Below are positions 11,918 to 51,817 of a stretch of 64,000 nt of DNA, piece after piece (positions within the stretch are counted from its first letter, which is position 1; each line of letters begins with the position of its first letter). A model generated the notes under the pieces. The model had not been told where the DNA came from and ran no database searches. It saw nothing but the letters and a program-made list of their open reading frames with translations. Origin of the DNA: Lagierella massiliensis (GTDB lineage: Bacteria > Bacillota > Clostridia > Tissierellales > Peptoniphilaceae); NCBI GenBank assembly GCA_030532135.1, contig JAUNLT010000001.1, positions 34,591-98,590 of the forward strand. Direction: 5' to 3'. A program made the position numbers and the translations under genes.

Positions 11918-12680
11918 ATTAAAGATGAAATATTTTCTTATAAGTTGTATTGTATTATTTGTTGTCATGTTGTACTCTGCATTTACAACTTATAATAGTA
12001 AGATACTGTTTTTTTCCACCGGCCCAAACCATCACAGTATTATGGATCTTGTAAATTGGTTGTATTATAAAACAGATAATTTAACATTTCTAATACTTTT
12101 TCCGATTTTTTTAGAAGAGGTATTAGAGAGAAGAGAACTTTACATGGAGTCACTAGTTATAAGGCATAGAAGTTTTAAAGATTTGTATAAAAGAGAAATG
12201 AGAAATCATCTAATTAAAACTTTTGTATATATGATTGTTTCTGTTCTCGCTATTTTAATATCCATAAAACTAATGGGAGAGTCTCCAAATTTAATTAACT
12301 GGAATGTAAAAGAATCTTTTTTTGAATGTAGTGAGGGGTTTACAAGCAATAGTCAAATAGTGACGGTGGTACTTTTTTTTACAGGAATAACTATAGTTAA
12401 TTTCCTTGTGGGATTTATAACAAAAGTAGATTATTTTTACAACAGAAGTTTTTATAGGGGATTTTTATTTTGCTTTATCATGTTTGTTCTGGACGTATAT
12501 GATGTAAATATTTTTAAAGCTTTGATTTTTCCTGTCGTAGGATTTAGTGAGAAGGTGGCGTTGGCAATATTAAGTCAATTAGTTACAGTGTCACTTATTG
12601 TAATTTTTTCAAAAAATTATGAATCAAAAGGTAAAAAAAGATATTTAAACAATATAATGAGATTAAAGGGCATAGATTAA
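11907..12680 (+). CDS. ABC transporter membrane subunit
   Basis: 257 residues with about six hydrophobic segments. I place the start at TTG 11907 rather than at an upstream in-frame ATG at 11874, because AGGAG at 11894-11898 is at the right distance and the overlap with the previous gene shrinks to 11 bases. N-terminal MEFKLKMKYFLISCIVLF is a typical permease entry. Last gene of the cluster, followed by a strong terminator. Confidence 0.6.
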   Translation: MEFKLKMKYFLISCIVLFVVMLYSAFTTYNSKILFFSTGPNHHSIMDLVNWLYYKTDNLTFLILFPIFLEEVLERRELYMESLVIRHRSFKDLYKREMRNHLIKTFVYMIVSVLAILISIKLMGESPNLINWNVKESFFECSEGFTSNSQIVTVVLFFTGITIVNFLVGFITKVDYFYNRSFYRGFLFCFIMFVLDVYDVNIFKALIFPVVGFSEKVALAILSQLVTVSLIVIFSKNYESKGKKRYLNNIMRLKGID

Positions 12681-12731
12681 AATTTAAAAGAGAATATGAT
12701 GACAAAGTGATAAATGAATTTGCATATTATT

Positions 12732-12759
12732 AAAAACACTCAGAGTCGAGTGTTTTTTT
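12732..12759 (+). terminator. Terminator of the ABC cluster
   Basis: AAAAACACTC and GAGTGTTTTT arms around AGAGTC, with a T run. The gap from here to 13109 contains no gene; it holds the prx promoter and an operator-like repeat. Confidence 0.88.
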
Positions 12760-13027
12760 GCTGCATAGAAACCTTACTTAAGTTAAGGTTACAATGGTAT
12801 TTAATATAAAGATAAATAAATAATAATAAACATACATTTAATTATTTTTTTGTTTTTTTGAAAATCTAATTTAAAAAATAATTTAATAGAAATATTTTAT
12901 ATTAAAATATATGAAAACCATGTAAAACTAACATATATAAACATTGATTAGAAAGGAAAGAATAAAAACAAGGATTAATACCTAATGCAAATAGATTAAA
13001 AAGATTAAAAATATAAACGAAAGGATA

Positions 13028-13055
13028 TTGAAATGATTACAAAATCATGTATAAT
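13028..13055 (+). promoter_or_regulatory. Promoter of the selenoprotein peroxiredoxin gene
   Basis: TTGAAA (13028-13033), 16-base spacer, TATAAT (13050-13055). It is followed at 13061-13076 by the inverted repeat TAGGAA-ATGA-TTCCTA, which would cover the transcription start and is a candidate repressor operator. Confidence 0.65.
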
Positions 13056-13109
13056 AAAAATAGGAAATGATTCCTAATATTAATTAAACTATTAAAAGGA
13101 GATTTAAAT

Positions 13110-13712
13110 ATGATTGAAGTAACTAAACAGGCACCTTTGTTCTCTGCGCCTGCTTATATGGATGGAGATGTTAAAGATTTTAATTTAGAAGACTTTAGAG
13201 GAAAGTGGACTCTACTTGTATTTTATCCTGGAGATTTCACTTTTGTCTGAGCGTCAGAAGTAGCAGCAGTTGCTGCCATGAATCCTGTATTTGAAAAACT
13301 TAATGTTCAAGTAGCGGTTGTATCTGTGGACTCGCCTTATGTCCATAAAGCTTGGGCAGATCAAGAACTTTTACCTATGCTTGATGGGAAAAAAGTTCCA
13401 TTCCCAATGGTTTCAGATCAAAATGGAGCAGTTTCAAGAGCGTATGGTGTGTATAGTGAAGATGCTTCTGTTTCTATGAGGGGAAGATTTATCATAGATC
13501 CGGAAGGAAATGTTCAATCTTTTGAAGTTATGGCTCCTTCTGTGGGAAGAAACTTTAAGGAAACAATAAGAGCTATTCAAGCACTACAACATGTTCACGA
13601 AAATACTTGTGATGCAACTCCTGCAGGATGGCAACCTGGAAAGGCAGTTCTTAAACCAAGTATTGAGCTGTCAGGAAATGTTCATAAGGAATATGATCCA
13701 TCTAAATATTAA
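13110..13712 (+). CDS. prxU: Selenocysteine-containing peroxiredoxin (UGA at codon 47)
   Basis: Thioredoxin-fold peroxidase that reduces hydroperoxides. The 201-codon frame from ATG 13110 (RBS AAAGGAG) is interrupted only by TGA at 13248-13250, exactly where the peroxidatic cysteine belongs: YPGDFTFV-U-ASE, against the usual DFTFVCPTE. Coding resumes without shift through VAVVSVDSPYVHKAW and RGRFIIDPEGNV to the C-terminus, which has a likely resolving Cys at about residue 167 (ENTCDATPAG). A bSECIS-like hairpin starts 12 bases after the TGA. Sec at 47 matches the placement known for PrxU of Eubacterium acidaminophilum. Standard gene callers would report only the 144-residue 3' piece. A pseudogene is unlikely given the intact rest. 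The selenium machinery is outside the window apart from mnmH. Confidence 0.93.
13263..13276 (+). promoter_or_regulatory. bSECIS-like hairpin downstream of the Sec UGA
   Basis: GCAGC (13263-13267) pairs with GCTGC (13272-13276), with apical loop AGTT. The loop begins 17 bases after the UGA and has G in its second position. This fits the known bacterial SECIS consensus of a small loop with an early G lying 16-37 bases from UGA. Confidence 0.75.
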
Positions 13713-13719
13713 TCATTTT

Positions 13720-13751
13720 GACCCTATTATTGTATATAGGGTCTTTTTTTT
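13720..13751 (+). terminator. Terminator after prxU
   Basis: GACCCTAT and ATAGGGTC arms around an 8-base loop, followed by eight or more T. It makes prxU monocistronic. Confidence 0.9.
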
Positions 13752-13848
13752 ATTAATTTTTTATTACAAAGTTTATTTCTCTAAAATGGGTATATTATTT
13801 ATTGGAAGTATATTTTATTTTGTTAGCCAATATAATAGGAGGTTTACT

Positions 13849-14616
13849 ATGGCATTTTCTATGAAAGATAAAAATGTAATTATAACTGGTGGAAATAAAG
13901 GTATAGGAGCAGGCATTACAAAGGTTTTTCTAGAAGAAGGAGCCAATGTAATTTTTACAGGTAGAAATGAAGAAGACGGTAAAGGTTTTGAAAAGGAACT
14001 AATAGACAAAGGGTATAACGCAAAGTTTTTTAAAGCGGATGTAACAGTTGAACAAGATGCGAAAAATCTTTTTGAGTATGCGGATAAAGAATTTTCAAGT
14101 ATTGATATTATTTTATTGAACGCAGGATATTATCCTGAAATGTCAATTGATGAAATGTCTGCAGAAGACTGGGATAATGTTATTGATATAAATCTTAAAG
14201 GAGTTTTCTTAAATACCAAAGAAGGAATAAAGTACTTGAAAGACGGTGGACGAATAGTAATAACCTCTTCCATAACAGGTAATAGGGTTGGTAATTCTAA
14301 GTTAGCCCATTATGCTGCAGCAAAGGCGGGGATTAACGGATTTATTAGATCAATTGCCTTAGAGCTAGCGAAGAAAAATATTACAATTAACGGAGTTGAA
14401 CCGGGAAATATTATGACGCCGGGTATGGAAAATGTACTTGGAGAGAGATATATTAAAAATCAAGAAGAAATTATCCCTATGGGATATTTGGGAGAGCCTG
14501 AAGATATTGCTTATGCTATAATGTTCTTAGCTTCGGATGAGGCAAAGTACATTACAGGCCAGACTATAGTAGTAGATGGAGGACAAATTCTTCCAGAGTC
14601 GCCTTTAGAGATGTAA
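13849..14616 (+). CDS. Short-chain dehydrogenase/reductase (UcpA-like)
   Basis: 255 residues. NAD(P)-binding TGGNKGIGAG, the NAG motif (LLNAGYY), catalytic Ser in ITSSITG, and the YxxxK pair in HYAAAKAG are all present, with C-terminal ITGQTIVVDGGQ. The start is ATG 13849 behind AGGAGG; the open frame extends back to 13591 inside prxU, but that part has no ribosome binding site. The sequence most resembles the UcpA/3-ketoacyl reductase-like SDRs; substrate unknown. It sits between the peroxiredoxin and the Hcp regulator, so a redox-stress role is possible (inference). Confidence 0.88.
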   Translation: MAFSMKDKNVIITGGNKGIGAGITKVFLEEGANVIFTGRNEEDGKGFEKELIDKGYNAKFFKADVTVEQDAKNLFEYADKEFSSIDIILLNAGYYPEMSIDEMSAEDWDNVIDINLKGVFLNTKEGIKYLKDGGRIVITSSITGNRVGNSKLAHYAAAKAGINGFIRSIALELAKKNITINGVEPGNIMTPGMENVLGERYIKNQEEIIPMGYLGEPEDIAYAIMFLASDEAKYITGQTIVVDGGQILPESPLEM

Positions 14617-14675: not shown

Positions 14676-15329
14676 ATGGCAAAAATGTCACAATTATTTA
14701 ATGACATGTCTAAAACAGAAATTGATAATTTTATTGTTAAAAATAAAGGCTTTAGAAAAAAATTCTTAAAAGGTGAAGAAATTTTTTCCCAAGGAACAAA
14801 ACCACAATATCTCTTTATATTAGAAGAAGGTTCTGTGGTTATTGAAAATATATCTAAAAGTGGACGACGTTCCATTGTAAACAGGTTTAGTGAAGAGGGA
14901 ACGGTTTTTGGAGAGGTATATCTCTATCTTCCTAAAAGGGATTATGACTATAGTTGTATAGCGGATATTGATACCATAATATTAAAAATTCCAAAAAAAG
15001 CATTTACAATGAAAGACGAAAGTTTTCAAAACTCTCGTGTAATTAACAATATGATGTTAATTTTGTCCCAAAAGGCACTTTATTTGAATCAGAAACTTTT
15101 AATACAGTCGGGTAAAACCCTTAGAGAAAAGTTATCTCGATTTTTTGTAAATAGTGCTAGAGAGTCTTCTTTAGATTTAGAATTTAATAGGGAAGAACTT
15201 GCTGATTTTTTTGGAGTTAGTCGACCTTCTATATCAAGGGAGATTATGAGTATGAAAAGAGACGGTCTAATTGAACTAAAAGGGAATAAAATTTTAATTA
15301 ATAGGGAAAAATTAGAAAAAGTTTTATAG
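14676..15329 (+). CDS. Crp/Fnr family transcriptional regulator (HcpR-like by context)
   Basis: 217 residues: N-terminal cyclic-nucleotide-binding-like barrel (residues about 20-115), dimer helix, and C-terminal winged helix with EELADFFGVSRPSISREIMSM as helix-turn-helix. Only one cysteine, so no FNR-type iron-sulfur cluster. It lies directly upstream of hcp, separated by a perfect palindrome of Crp/Fnr type. By analogy with HcpR regulators, it likely senses nitric oxide or a related signal and activates hcp; this is inference from family and context. RBS GAGGAG precedes ATG 14676. Confidence 0.85.
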   Translation: MAKMSQLFNDMSKTEIDNFIVKNKGFRKKFLKGEEIFSQGTKPQYLFILEEGSVVIENISKSGRRSIVNRFSEEGTVFGEVYLYLPKRDYDYSCIADIDTIILKIPKKAFTMKDESFQNSRVINNMMLILSQKALYLNQKLLIQSGKTLREKLSRFFVNSARESSLDLEFNREELADFFGVSRPSISREIMSMKRDGLIELKGNKILINREKLEKVL

Positions 15330-15345
15330 TGTAACAATTGTTACA
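15330..15345. promoter_or_regulatory. Palindromic Crp/Fnr-type operator upstream of hcp
   Basis: Perfect 16-bp palindrome TGTAACAATTGTTACA immediately after the regulator gene. With the -10-like TATAAA at 15365-15370, its centre falls near -40 to the expected transcription start, the usual class II activator position. Confidence 0.75.
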
Positions 15346-15397
15346 GAAAGTGGCATTTGTAGAGTATAAAATATAGGTATCTTAAGGGGGTAAGAAA

Positions 15398-17026
15398 ATG
15401 AATAATATGTTTTGTTATCAATGTCAGGAAACTTTTGGCAATGAAGGTTGTGTAAAGTCGGGAATTTGTGGTAAAAAACCTGAAGTTGCAAATAAACAAG
15501 ATTTACTTATTTGGGTTACTAAGGGACTTTCCCATGTAACTACAAGACTTCGTAAAGAAGAAACTAAAATAGCTCAAAGTGTAAACTCTTTAGTATTAAA
15601 CAATCTGTTTACAACTATTACTAATGCCAACTTCGATGAAGATGCAATAGATGAAAGAATAGAAAAGACTATTTTAACTACTCAAGAACTAAAGAAAGAG
15701 TTAAAAGATCAGTCTAATCTATCTGAAGCTTCAAACTATAAAGAATTAGATAGGACAAAGTGGGTTGAAACTGCAAAAGAAGTTGGGGTTTTAAGCACTG
15801 AAAATGAAGATATTAGATCTTTAAGAGAACTTACTATATATGGATTAAAGGGATTGGCTGCATATTTAAAACACGCAGAGGTACTTGGAGAAACTGACGA
15901 AGAGATAGATGCTTTTATGCAAAGAGCTTTGTCTGATACTTTAACTGAAATGTCAGTTGAAGAATTGATTGATTTAGTTATGGAAACAGGTAACTTTGGT
16001 GTAAAGGGAATGGCTCTACTGGATAAGGCAAACACTTCAAACTACGGAAATCCTGAAATCACAAAGGTAAATATAGGAGTTAGAAATAATCCAGCTATTT
16101 TAATTTCTGGGCATGACTTAAAGGATATGGAAATGCTCTTAAAGCAGACAGAAGGCACAGGAGTAGACGTTTATACTCATAGCGAAATGTTGCCTGCAAA
16201 TTATTATCCTAAATTTAAAAAGTATGAACATTTTGTTGGAAATTATGGTTCTTCATGGTGGAACCAAAGAGAAGAGTTTAAGTCTTTTAATGGACCAGTT
16301 CTTTTCACTACAAACTGTATAGTGCCACCTCTTGCAGAGTATAAAGATAGAATTTATACTACAGGAGCAGCTGGTTTTTCAGGTTGCAAGCACATTCCTG
16401 GAGAAGTGGGAGAAGAAAAAGATTTTAGTGAAATTATAGAACATGCAAAAAAACTAAATTCACCTGAAGAGATAGAAAAGGGAGAAATTGTCGGAGGATT
16501 TGCCCATAACCAAGTAATGGAACTTGAAGATAAGGTTATCGAGGCTGTTAAATCTGGTAAAATTAAGAAATTTATCGTTATGGCAGGATGTGACGGTAGA
16601 CAAAAAGGTAGAAATTACTATACGGAATTTGCTAAAGCTCTTCCAAAAGATACTGTGATCCTTACAGCAGGTTGTGCTAAATACAGATATAATAAACTTA
16701 ATTTAGGAGATATTGACGGTATACCTAGAGTGCTTGATGCTGGTCAATGTAATGACTCTTACTCTCTTGCAGTAATAGCATTAAGACTTAAAGAAGCTTT
16801 CGGTCTTGAAGATATAAACGAATTACCTATAGTCTACAATATTGCATGGTATGAACAAAAGGCTGTAATAGTTCTTCTTTCACTACTTGCACTAGGGGTT
16901 AAAAACATACATTTAGGACCTACACTACCTGCATTTTTATCTGAAAATGTAACAAAGGTTCTTGTGGACAGTTTTAACTTATCCTCCATAGGCACTATAG
17001 AAGACGATATGGCTGTAATGATTTAA
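15398..17026 (+). CDS. hcp: Hybrid cluster protein / hydroxylamine reductase
   Basis: 542-residue cytoplasmic iron-sulfur enzyme that reduces hydroxylamine in vitro and nitric oxide in vivo and protects against nitrosative stress. Cys6, Cys9, Cys18 and Cys24 form the C-x2-C-x8-C-x5-C ligand set of the cubane cluster. Hybrid-cluster ligands are visible in [22 protein letters not shown] and [12 protein letters not shown]. Length matches class I Hcp. RBS GGGGG at 15386. Preceded by the Crp/Fnr operator and followed by the DUF1858/hemerythrin pair, making a nitrosative-stress locus. Confidence 0.97.
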
Positions 17027-17082
17027 TATAATTGTAAATGGTGATATAATACTATTGAATCACTGGTAAAGGAGGCAAAAAA

Positions 17083-17286
17083 ATGGATAAAGTAATCGAT
17101 AAAGATATGTTAATTGGTCAACTTGTTGCTCAATTTCCAGAAACAGCACCGGTACTTATGGGAATCGGTATGCACTGTTTAGGATGCCCTGCATCTCAGT
17201 CAGAGTCAATTGCAGAAGCTGCTATGGTTCATGGCGTTGACGCAGATGCGCTTGTTGAAGCTCTAAATGATGCAGTTGAGAAGTAA
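17083..17286 (+). CDS. DUF1858 domain protein (ScdA N-domain-like)
   Basis: 67-residue protein consisting of a single DUF1858 domain with the CLGC motif (HCLGCPASQSESIAEAA). The fold is related to the N-terminal domain of ScdA/YtfE proteins that repair nitric-oxide-damaged iron centres. Strong RBS AAAGGAGG before ATG 17083. It is followed by a hemerythrin gene one base later, so the two together mimic a two-domain ScdA/RIC protein. Function as a redox or iron-handling partner is inference. Confidence 0.82.
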   Translation: MDKVIDKDMLIGQLVAQFPETAPVLMGIGMHCLGCPASQSESIAEAAMVHGVDADALVEALNDAVEK

Positions 17287-17287
17287 T

Positions 17288-17836
17288 ATGGAAATGAATA
17301 GCATCAAAATTTTAGTTAAAGAGCACGAAGAAATTTCTAAACTTCTAAATAGGCTGGAAGAAGAGTGTGCAAAAATTCTTAAAGGCTCCACTATAGATTA
17401 TGAGTTTTTTGAAGCTTCCATTGAGTTTATAAGAAGTTACGCAGACAAGGTACACCATATGAAAGAAGAGGATATACTATTTAAACATATGACTTCAAAT
17501 CTAGGTGTTCCTGCACAAAAACTTATAAATCATGGAATGTTAGTAGAACATCAATTAGGAAGACATTATATAACAGAACTGGAAAAGCATTTAAATAATT
17601 ATAAAGAGTTTTCAGATATAAAGGATAGGGTGCAAATAATTGCCTATACCATGTCCTATGTAAATATTTTAAGAATGCATATAGAAAAAGAAAATTCAGT
17701 TGTATATCCATTTGGTGAGAAAAATCTACCTGAAGAGGTAAAAGATATAGTAGAAAGAGAGTCAAAAGATAGACTTGAAGAAGATAAAAAAGTTCTTGAA
17801 AGGAAAGAAGAGCTTTTAAAGATTATCTTTAAATAA
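17288..17836 (+). CDS. Hemerythrin-like HHE domain protein
   Basis: 182 residues, four-helix bundle with a probable di-iron site. Candidate ligands are visible in order: His13 (KEHEE), His56/57 with Glu60/61 (HHMKEED), His82 and His88 (NHGMLVEH), and His131 with Glu135 (MHIEKEN). I start at ATG 17288, two bases after the DUF1858 stop; an in-frame ATG at 17267 would overlap that gene. Likely binds oxygen or nitric oxide, or donates iron for cluster repair like RIC proteins (inference from neighbours hcp and DUF1858). Confidence 0.87.
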   Translation: MEMNSIKILVKEHEEISKLLNRLEEECAKILKGSTIDYEFFEASIEFIRSYADKVHHMKEEDILFKHMTSNLGVPAQKLINHGMLVEHQLGRHYITELEKHLNNYKEFSDIKDRVQIIAYTMSYVNILRMHIEKENSVVYPFGEKNLPEEVKDIVERESKDRLEEDKKVLERKEELLKIIFK

Positions 17837-42590: not shown

Positions 42591-42853
42591 TAGCACACCC
42601 GGCTTTGACTAATTACACCTTAACGTTACAAATGTAGTTAGCTCGAAGTAGGTGACCTTACGGCACATAGAAAAGACTACTTATGGCTGCTTCGTTCCCG
42701 ACCTGACCAGGTTCATAGGTTCCTATTGCGTAAGACCCGCTTGTCAACACCACTTGCATTTGGCTGACTTAATTTGTAAAAAGCCGGGGCCGGGAATTCG
42801 ACCCTGCTGTAGCGATTGCAGGTTCAGGGCATCGCTAGTTCCCCGTCTAGTGC
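42591..42853 (-). ncRNA. ffs: Signal recognition particle RNA, large type
   Basis: The conserved domain IV is at about 42679-42712 on minus: ACCTGGTCAGGTCGGG followed by AACGAAGCAGCC. A 5' Alu-like domain (GGGGAACTAGCGATGCCC, then GCAGGGTCGAATTCCC) and long-range pairing CCCGGCTTT (about 42781) with AAAGCCGGG (about 42600) mark the long Clostridia/Bacillus form. It works with Ffh in co-translational targeting. Boundaries are approximate: the 5' end follows the tRNA CCA by about one base and the 3' end precedes the terminator. Confidence 0.92.
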
Positions 42854-42854
42854 G

Positions 42855-42945
42855 TGGCGGAGAATGAGGGATTTGAACCCTCGAGACGCTCATCACGCCT
42901 ACACGATTTCCAATCGTGCTCCTTCAGCCGCTCGGACAATTCTCC
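42855..42945 (-). tRNA. tRNA-Ser (GGA)
   Basis: Acceptor arms GGAGAAT and ATTCTCC, discriminator G and an encoded CCA at 42855-42857. The anticodon stem CACGA/TCGTG has loop TTGGAAA with anticodon GGA, reading UCC and UCU. A long variable arm (class II) and T-loop GGTTCAAATCC are present. Directly precedes the SRP RNA on one transcript. Confidence 0.97.
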
Positions 42946-51577: not shown

Positions 51578-51604
51578 AATCATTGATTATAGAATATAAA
51601 ACAT

Positions 51605-51817
51605 TAAAGACTGAAAAGACCGTTTTTTCATGAAAGTTATAGAGAGATTCGGCTAGGTGGAACGAATTACGGAAGTGAAAAAAAGATCATCTTGGAGTTG
51701 GATATTCGAAAGGTAGAATATCCCGTTGTACGCGTTAAGTATTAGAGTGGTGAAAGCAATTCACAATTTGGGTGGTACCGCGGAAATTTCGTCCCTAGTT
51801 TTACTAGGGGCTTTTTT
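51605..51817 (+). promoter_or_regulatory. T-box leader of ileS
   Basis: tRNA-responsive transcription attenuator. The T-box sequence GGGTGGTACCGCGG is at 51770-51783, the Stem I region begins near AGAGAGATTC, and consecutive ATC codons at 51686-51691 are candidate Ile specifiers. The terminator CCCTAGT-TTT-ACTAGGG plus T run is at 51793-51817. Uncharged tRNA-Ile would stabilise the antiterminator. Confidence 0.93.

Follow-up and report, generated by a model that had tools for sequence, protein, structure and literature searches.

Selenocysteine (Sec) peroxiredoxins have reportedly been known since 2001, the year of the founding PrxU paper on Eubacterium acidaminophilum. That paper is cited in PMC13188914, PMC8533274 and PMC9312934, the first of which gives PxxxTxxU as the motif of Sec peroxiredoxins. 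PMC3091704 describes a seleno-peroxiredoxin of C. sticklandii, CLOST_2406, with Sec at residue 84 of 240, which bears out the original prediction in placing such enzymes among amino-acid-fermenting anaerobes. A PrxU is also reported to be up-regulated in Sulfobacillus (PMC7409299), and a table in a 2006 survey lists 12 Sec peroxiredoxins and five Cys-to-Sec events (PMC1794560). Surveys place 'Prx' under COG1225, and Sec peroxiredoxins other than PrxU may therefore be included in their counts.

The window, that is, the whole stretch of 64,000 nucleotides of Lagierella massiliensis DNA that was analysed, contains a frame designated prxU whose single stop before its end is a TGA at codon 47, the remainder reading as an intact peroxiredoxin (Table 1). 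The TGA stands in the context PGDFTFV-U, which is the motif PxxxTxxU. The read-through protein scores 279.4 bits against the NCBIfam PrxU model NF040737 over residues 1–198 (cut-off 270; 275.7 bits in the genome search), and a match to Pfam AhpC-TSA (residues 4–136, E 6.3e-37) extends across the TGA. In addition, a 1-cysPrx_C domain is found at residues 158–184 (30 bits, cut-off 21.1), and solved peroxiredoxins match the product at E values down to 9.7e-41. The AhpC equivalog model TIGR03137 gives 175.5 bits, which is below its cut-off of 272, and identity is at most 57% to other PrxU rows versus at most 42% to AhpC controls. The original prediction was of an otherwise intact 200-residue peroxiredoxin interrupted once, at codon 47, with Sec at the peroxidatic position of a PrxU; the frame, the Pfam match that spans the TGA, the NF040737 score and the codon usage of the family all agree with it.

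With high probability, prxU encodes a PrxU-type selenoperoxiredoxin that would incorporate Sec and act as a peroxidase, an estimate that leaves the resolving step aside. The in-frame UGA is very probably decoded as Sec at the active site, and the product is presumably functional. A mechanical ORF call yields a 144-residue ATG ORF (13278–13712) inside prxU, so a mechanical gene caller would shorten this selenoprotein to that fragment. The NCBI PrxU model could prevent such a mis-annotation.

Table 1. Features of the prxU locus (window coordinates).
Feature	Position	Strand	Evidence or remark
Shine-Dalgarno-like AAAAGGAG, 8 bases 5' of the prxU ATG	13094..13101	+	read from sequence
prxU, 200-residue peroxiredoxin, Sec at codon 47	13110..13712	+	ATG start; TAA stop 13710-13712; NF040737 and Pfam AhpC-TSA matches
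In-frame TGA read as selenocysteine 47, peroxidatic position of PxxxTxxU	13248..13250	+	TGA in 65/67 PrxU loci
Core of putative bacterial SECIS hairpin, GCAGC-AGUU-GCUGC, loop 13268-13271	13263..13276	+	family covariation; 17 nt from TGA to loop
Cys167, only cysteine codon of the prxU frame	13608..13610	+	three columns ahead of the resolving Cys of AhpC in the alignment
Thr170, in the AhpC resolving-Cys column	13617..13619	+	joint alignment of PrxU and AhpC rows
Terminator-like stem-loop with T run, 3' of prxU	13720..13753	+	1 found in 12700-13900 versus 0.3 (sd 0.7) expected

In the mechanism proposed, SelB bound to the hairpin would deliver Sec-tRNA-Sec at the UGA, as in established bacterial selenocysteine decoding, so that the full 200-residue enzyme would be made. 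The U47 selenolate, situated in the PxxxTxxU pocket, would reduce hydroperoxides and be converted to a selenenic acid, as expected from peroxiredoxin chemistry. The selenenic acid would then most likely be reduced by an external thiol, supplied by thioredoxin or another small redox protein. This resolving step is the uncertain part of the scheme.

The family was assembled with NF040737, which scored above cut-off in 66 genomes and, together with one Atribacterota contig (L045), provided 67 loci. Matches above cut-off were found in 14 of 61 sampled relatives, in 54 of 249 genomes of the order that were searched and in 14 of 391 genomes sampled across the class, two of which are already among the 54 of the order. 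The catalytic codon is TGA at 65 of the 67 loci and TGT at the other two. In 63 of these 66 genomes, selA scores above its cut-off; the three exceptions are G110, which has a TGT form, G061, which is 71% complete, and G499, a TGA form from a genome labelled 100% complete. A search of these three for tRNA-Sec returned none at E 1e-8, with 150 of the 330 candidates scored in G499. The TGA prxU of G499, whose hairpin has 5 of 6 pairs, counts against the Sec reading, given the missing selA match. In G047, the second genome with a TGT form, selA is present. When the 61 relatives were divided by selA, TGA-PrxU was present in 13 of the 42 that have it and in none of the 19 that lack it (Fisher P 0.004, relatedness ignored). 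In two genomes of one family (G310 and G406), prxU lies approximately 280–345 bases from selA.

When the family was placed on a tree, one Cys form (L090) was nested in a Sec clade with support of 100/99, a placement that reads as a probable Sec-to-Cys change. The window protein forms the longest end branch (1.2) and, because of this and its divergence, its exact place in the tree is unsure.

The original prediction pointed to selA, selB, selC and selD as the genes to be sought alongside a selenoprotein. In the genome's own draft assembly (1.23 Mb, 65% complete), selA (604.8 bits, cut-off 267.9), selB (363.4 bits, cut-off 242.25) and tRNA-Sec, that is selC (69.6 bits, gathering score 47; ARAGORN tRNA-SeC, anticodon UCA), are all present. 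These three adjoin one another on contig C16, and the Sec reading did not founder on their absence. A search of this incomplete assembly for selD gave no match above cut-off (best 30.8 bits against 125), which counts against the Sec reading, but both congeners have the gene, at 381.2 and 380.5 bits. Past selA, on the opposite strand, is a glycine-reductase operon with genes for GrdX, thioredoxin reductase, a GrdE/GrdG-like protein that scores below the cut-off of its model, selenoprotein A, selenoprotein B and both subunits of glycine reductase component C. Both grdA and grdB contain an in-frame TGA (CFV-U and U-GTC, respectively), which we take to be the known Sec positions of these selenoproteins.

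In the window, the putative SECIS hairpin forms all five core pairs and has the family's AGUU loop. Two registers are seen among the TGA loci. In the first, which is found at 52 of 64 loci with L105 as a 53rd, the loop is AGUU (AGUG in one) and lies 17 nt past the TGA; in the second, found at 12 of the 64, the hairpin is 6 nt further downstream. Taken in turn, the core pairs are formed in 47, 50, 51, 50 and 51 of the 51 distinct first-register sequences. Pair 17:26 brings together the third positions of codons 5 and 8. It is a standard pair in all 51, and its codon sets are TCA~GCT or GCA~GCT at 44 loci, TCT~GCA at three, TCG~GCC at two, GCT~GCA at one and a G-T wobble at one, plus L067. The co-changes at this pair (TCA~GCT, TCT~GCA, TCG~GCC and GCT~GCA) keep the amino acid, that is, they are synonymous and compensatory, and about five separate double changes can be read on the tree. 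When one side of the pair was permuted, full pairing appeared in 0 of 200000 trials (relatedness ignored). In addition, 50 of the 51 sequences share GTT at codon 7, whereas GTT accounts for 295 of 802 later Val codons. The L067 copy itself (genome G196) has an extra TAA four codons past the TGA, within the hairpin stem, and is either damaged or affected by a sequencing error.

Both TGT members have lost the hairpin: in the first register they retain 1 and 2 of the five core pairs, and in the second 3 of 6. Similarly, 14 of 15 AhpC controls have at most two of the five first-register pairs and the remaining one has four. The second register discriminates less, with 3–5 of 6 pairs in 11 of the 15 AhpC controls versus 5–6 in the 12 PrxU loci, and a hairpin in this position would therefore count as weaker evidence. 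The folding energy of the window hairpin is no better than that of dinucleotide shuffles (z 0.11) or synonymous recodings (P 0.56 and 0.72), and most of the 14 other TGA loci examined in this way were likewise not significant. This counts against the Sec reading, and the case for the hairpin is made by family covariation. The family offers natural test cases for the retention and loss of Sec: its hairpin occurs in two positions, and two Cys-codon members lack it, of which one comes from a genome without selA.

The TGA could have arisen from a Cys codon, either through a sequencing error or by a recent inactivating mutation, making prxU a plain Cys peroxiredoxin or a pseudogene. Both TGC and TGT are one base away and the assembly is a draft; however, the TGA recurs at 65 of the 67 family loci, the conserved hairpin that follows it is lost in the two TGT members, the selenocysteine gene set is complete but for selD, and the rest of the frame is open to its end. 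We regard this explanation as very improbable, and the danger raised in the original prediction, that homologues with Cys would expose the TGA as an error, did not materialise across the family. Less probable still is that this genome has reassigned TGA to one of the ordinary amino acids. Further genes with in-frame TGA do exist (grdA and grdB), but they belong to selenoprotein families and the codons are presumably at their Sec positions, and TGA serves as an ordinary stop in the window, where it ends 4 of 37 mechanical ORFs with 200 or more residues. Decoding as Sec is the reading that we retain.

The resolving step was addressed with a joint alignment of 65 PrxU and 15 AhpC rows, in which L067 and L098 were left out. 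The AhpC resolving column contains Cys in all 15 AhpC controls and in none of the 65 PrxU rows, where the residues are Thr (45), Met (8), Ala (6), Ile (3) and Leu (3). As the classical resolving Cys is absent from the aligned PrxU rows, an external thiol most likely reduces the selenenic acid. The own genome has one partial thioredoxin-family match, of 46 bits. No statement on the missing resolving Cys of PrxU was met in the literature passages that were searched, and we do not claim that the observation is unpublished.

Cysteines are found elsewhere in the family. One is located ten residues before Sec in 60 of 66 PrxU members and is absent in the window protein. Long forms (for example, L008–L014) have an N-terminal tail of 30–40 residues with a conserved-looking Cys, often in GCxRP, and short forms, including that of the window, have no such tail. 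Where 70 or more open codons precede Sec, which is the case for 47 members, 45 have a Cys between −95 and −60, a count that refers to the open frame and not to a proven start; in L016, the tail Cys falls upstream of the likely start.

A bolder reading for the window protein is a two-residue, Sec/Cys peroxiredoxin, which differs from the preferred explanation in the resolving step only. Here, C167 of one subunit would resolve the U47 selenenic acid of the other, giving a selenenylsulfide that is reduced by thioredoxin. C167, at +120 from Sec, is the sole Cys of the protein and is close to the AhpC resolving column, and the protein has neither the Cys at −10 nor the tail Cys of the long forms. 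In addition, an aligned Leishmania-type peroxidoxin has a shifted Cys (DAIPCGW), which we take to be its resolving residue. Against this, the window protein is alone among the 65 PrxU rows in having Cys in that column, which may be chance, and several other short forms have no Cys after Sec and must manage without one. The Sec/Cys arrangement is therefore possible, though on balance doubtful, and an external thiol is favoured as the reductant in PrxU. A history to match it is more speculative again: PrxU may have dropped the classical resolving Cys after selenium took the active site, with the lineage of the window regaining a displaced one as C167; the tail Cys of the long forms could serve likewise. 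The missing resolving Cys poses a question for the bench, namely the route by which the selenenic acid of PrxU is reduced and the role of C167 in the window protein.

The genes that flank the prxU site are collinear with the window in both congeners (G001 and G002), at 69% and 73–75% nucleotide identity, so the prxU contig is not foreign. The gap in the congeners that matches window positions 12682 to approximately 13830 holds a 526-residue opposite-strand ORF with ABC transporter domains instead of prxU, and neither congener gave a PrxU match above cut-off. It follows that, within the genus, prxU was acquired at this site, took the place of another gene there or disappeared from the others. 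The gene content of the site (12683–13828) differs between members of the genus, which marks it as a point of gene exchange. A mobile-element origin was considered and set aside, as weak A+T-rich repeats were the only framing ones in 12600–13900. The G+C content over prxU is 0.34–0.38 versus 0.21–0.35 in the other surrounding 500-base windows and is not telling. A good promoter match at 13028–13055 carries no weight, as the scan gave 7 sites versus 6.9 expected.

Several other features of the window were recorded. A scan that allowed one TGA per frame gave four further candidates, none of which was kept; by eye, two look like natural gene ends, which we take to be those of a DinB-like polymerase and a 3-methyladenine-glycosylase-like gene, and two look like antisense or end frames. 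As prxU itself was missed, this search was incomplete. Just downstream, positions 14676–17836 contain together a Crp/Fnr-type regulator, a hydroxylamine reductase (hybrid cluster protein) and a hemerythrin-domain protein, and this looks like a nitrosative-stress cluster. By ORF starts, the same three-gene order is also seen in the congener stretches, with the hemerythrin-like ORF listed in L104 only. A large bacterial SRP RNA is located at 42591–42945, directly beside tRNA-Ser, and a T-box leader at 51604–51799.

The window protein resembles PrxU (NF040737) in passing the curated cut-off, in having Sec at the peroxidatic position and a hairpin past the UGA, and in lacking the classical resolving Cys. 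It differs in being just over the cut-off, in its long end branch, in the absence of both the N-terminal tail and the Cys at −10, and in its unique Cys at +120. C. sticklandii CLOST_2406 is likewise a Sec peroxiredoxin of an amino-acid-fermenting clostridium with glycine reductase (PMC3091704); its Sec, at 84 of 240, probably makes it a long form, as judged by length alone, whereas that of the window protein is at 47 of 200. With AhpC and the typical 2-Cys peroxiredoxins, the protein shares the Pfam family and the PxxxTxx motif before the catalytic residue, but it has Sec for Cys, Thr170 in the resolving (VCP) column and a TIGR03137 score that fails the cut-off. PrxU is an already known and named family, and what is unusual in the window member is its divergence and C167.
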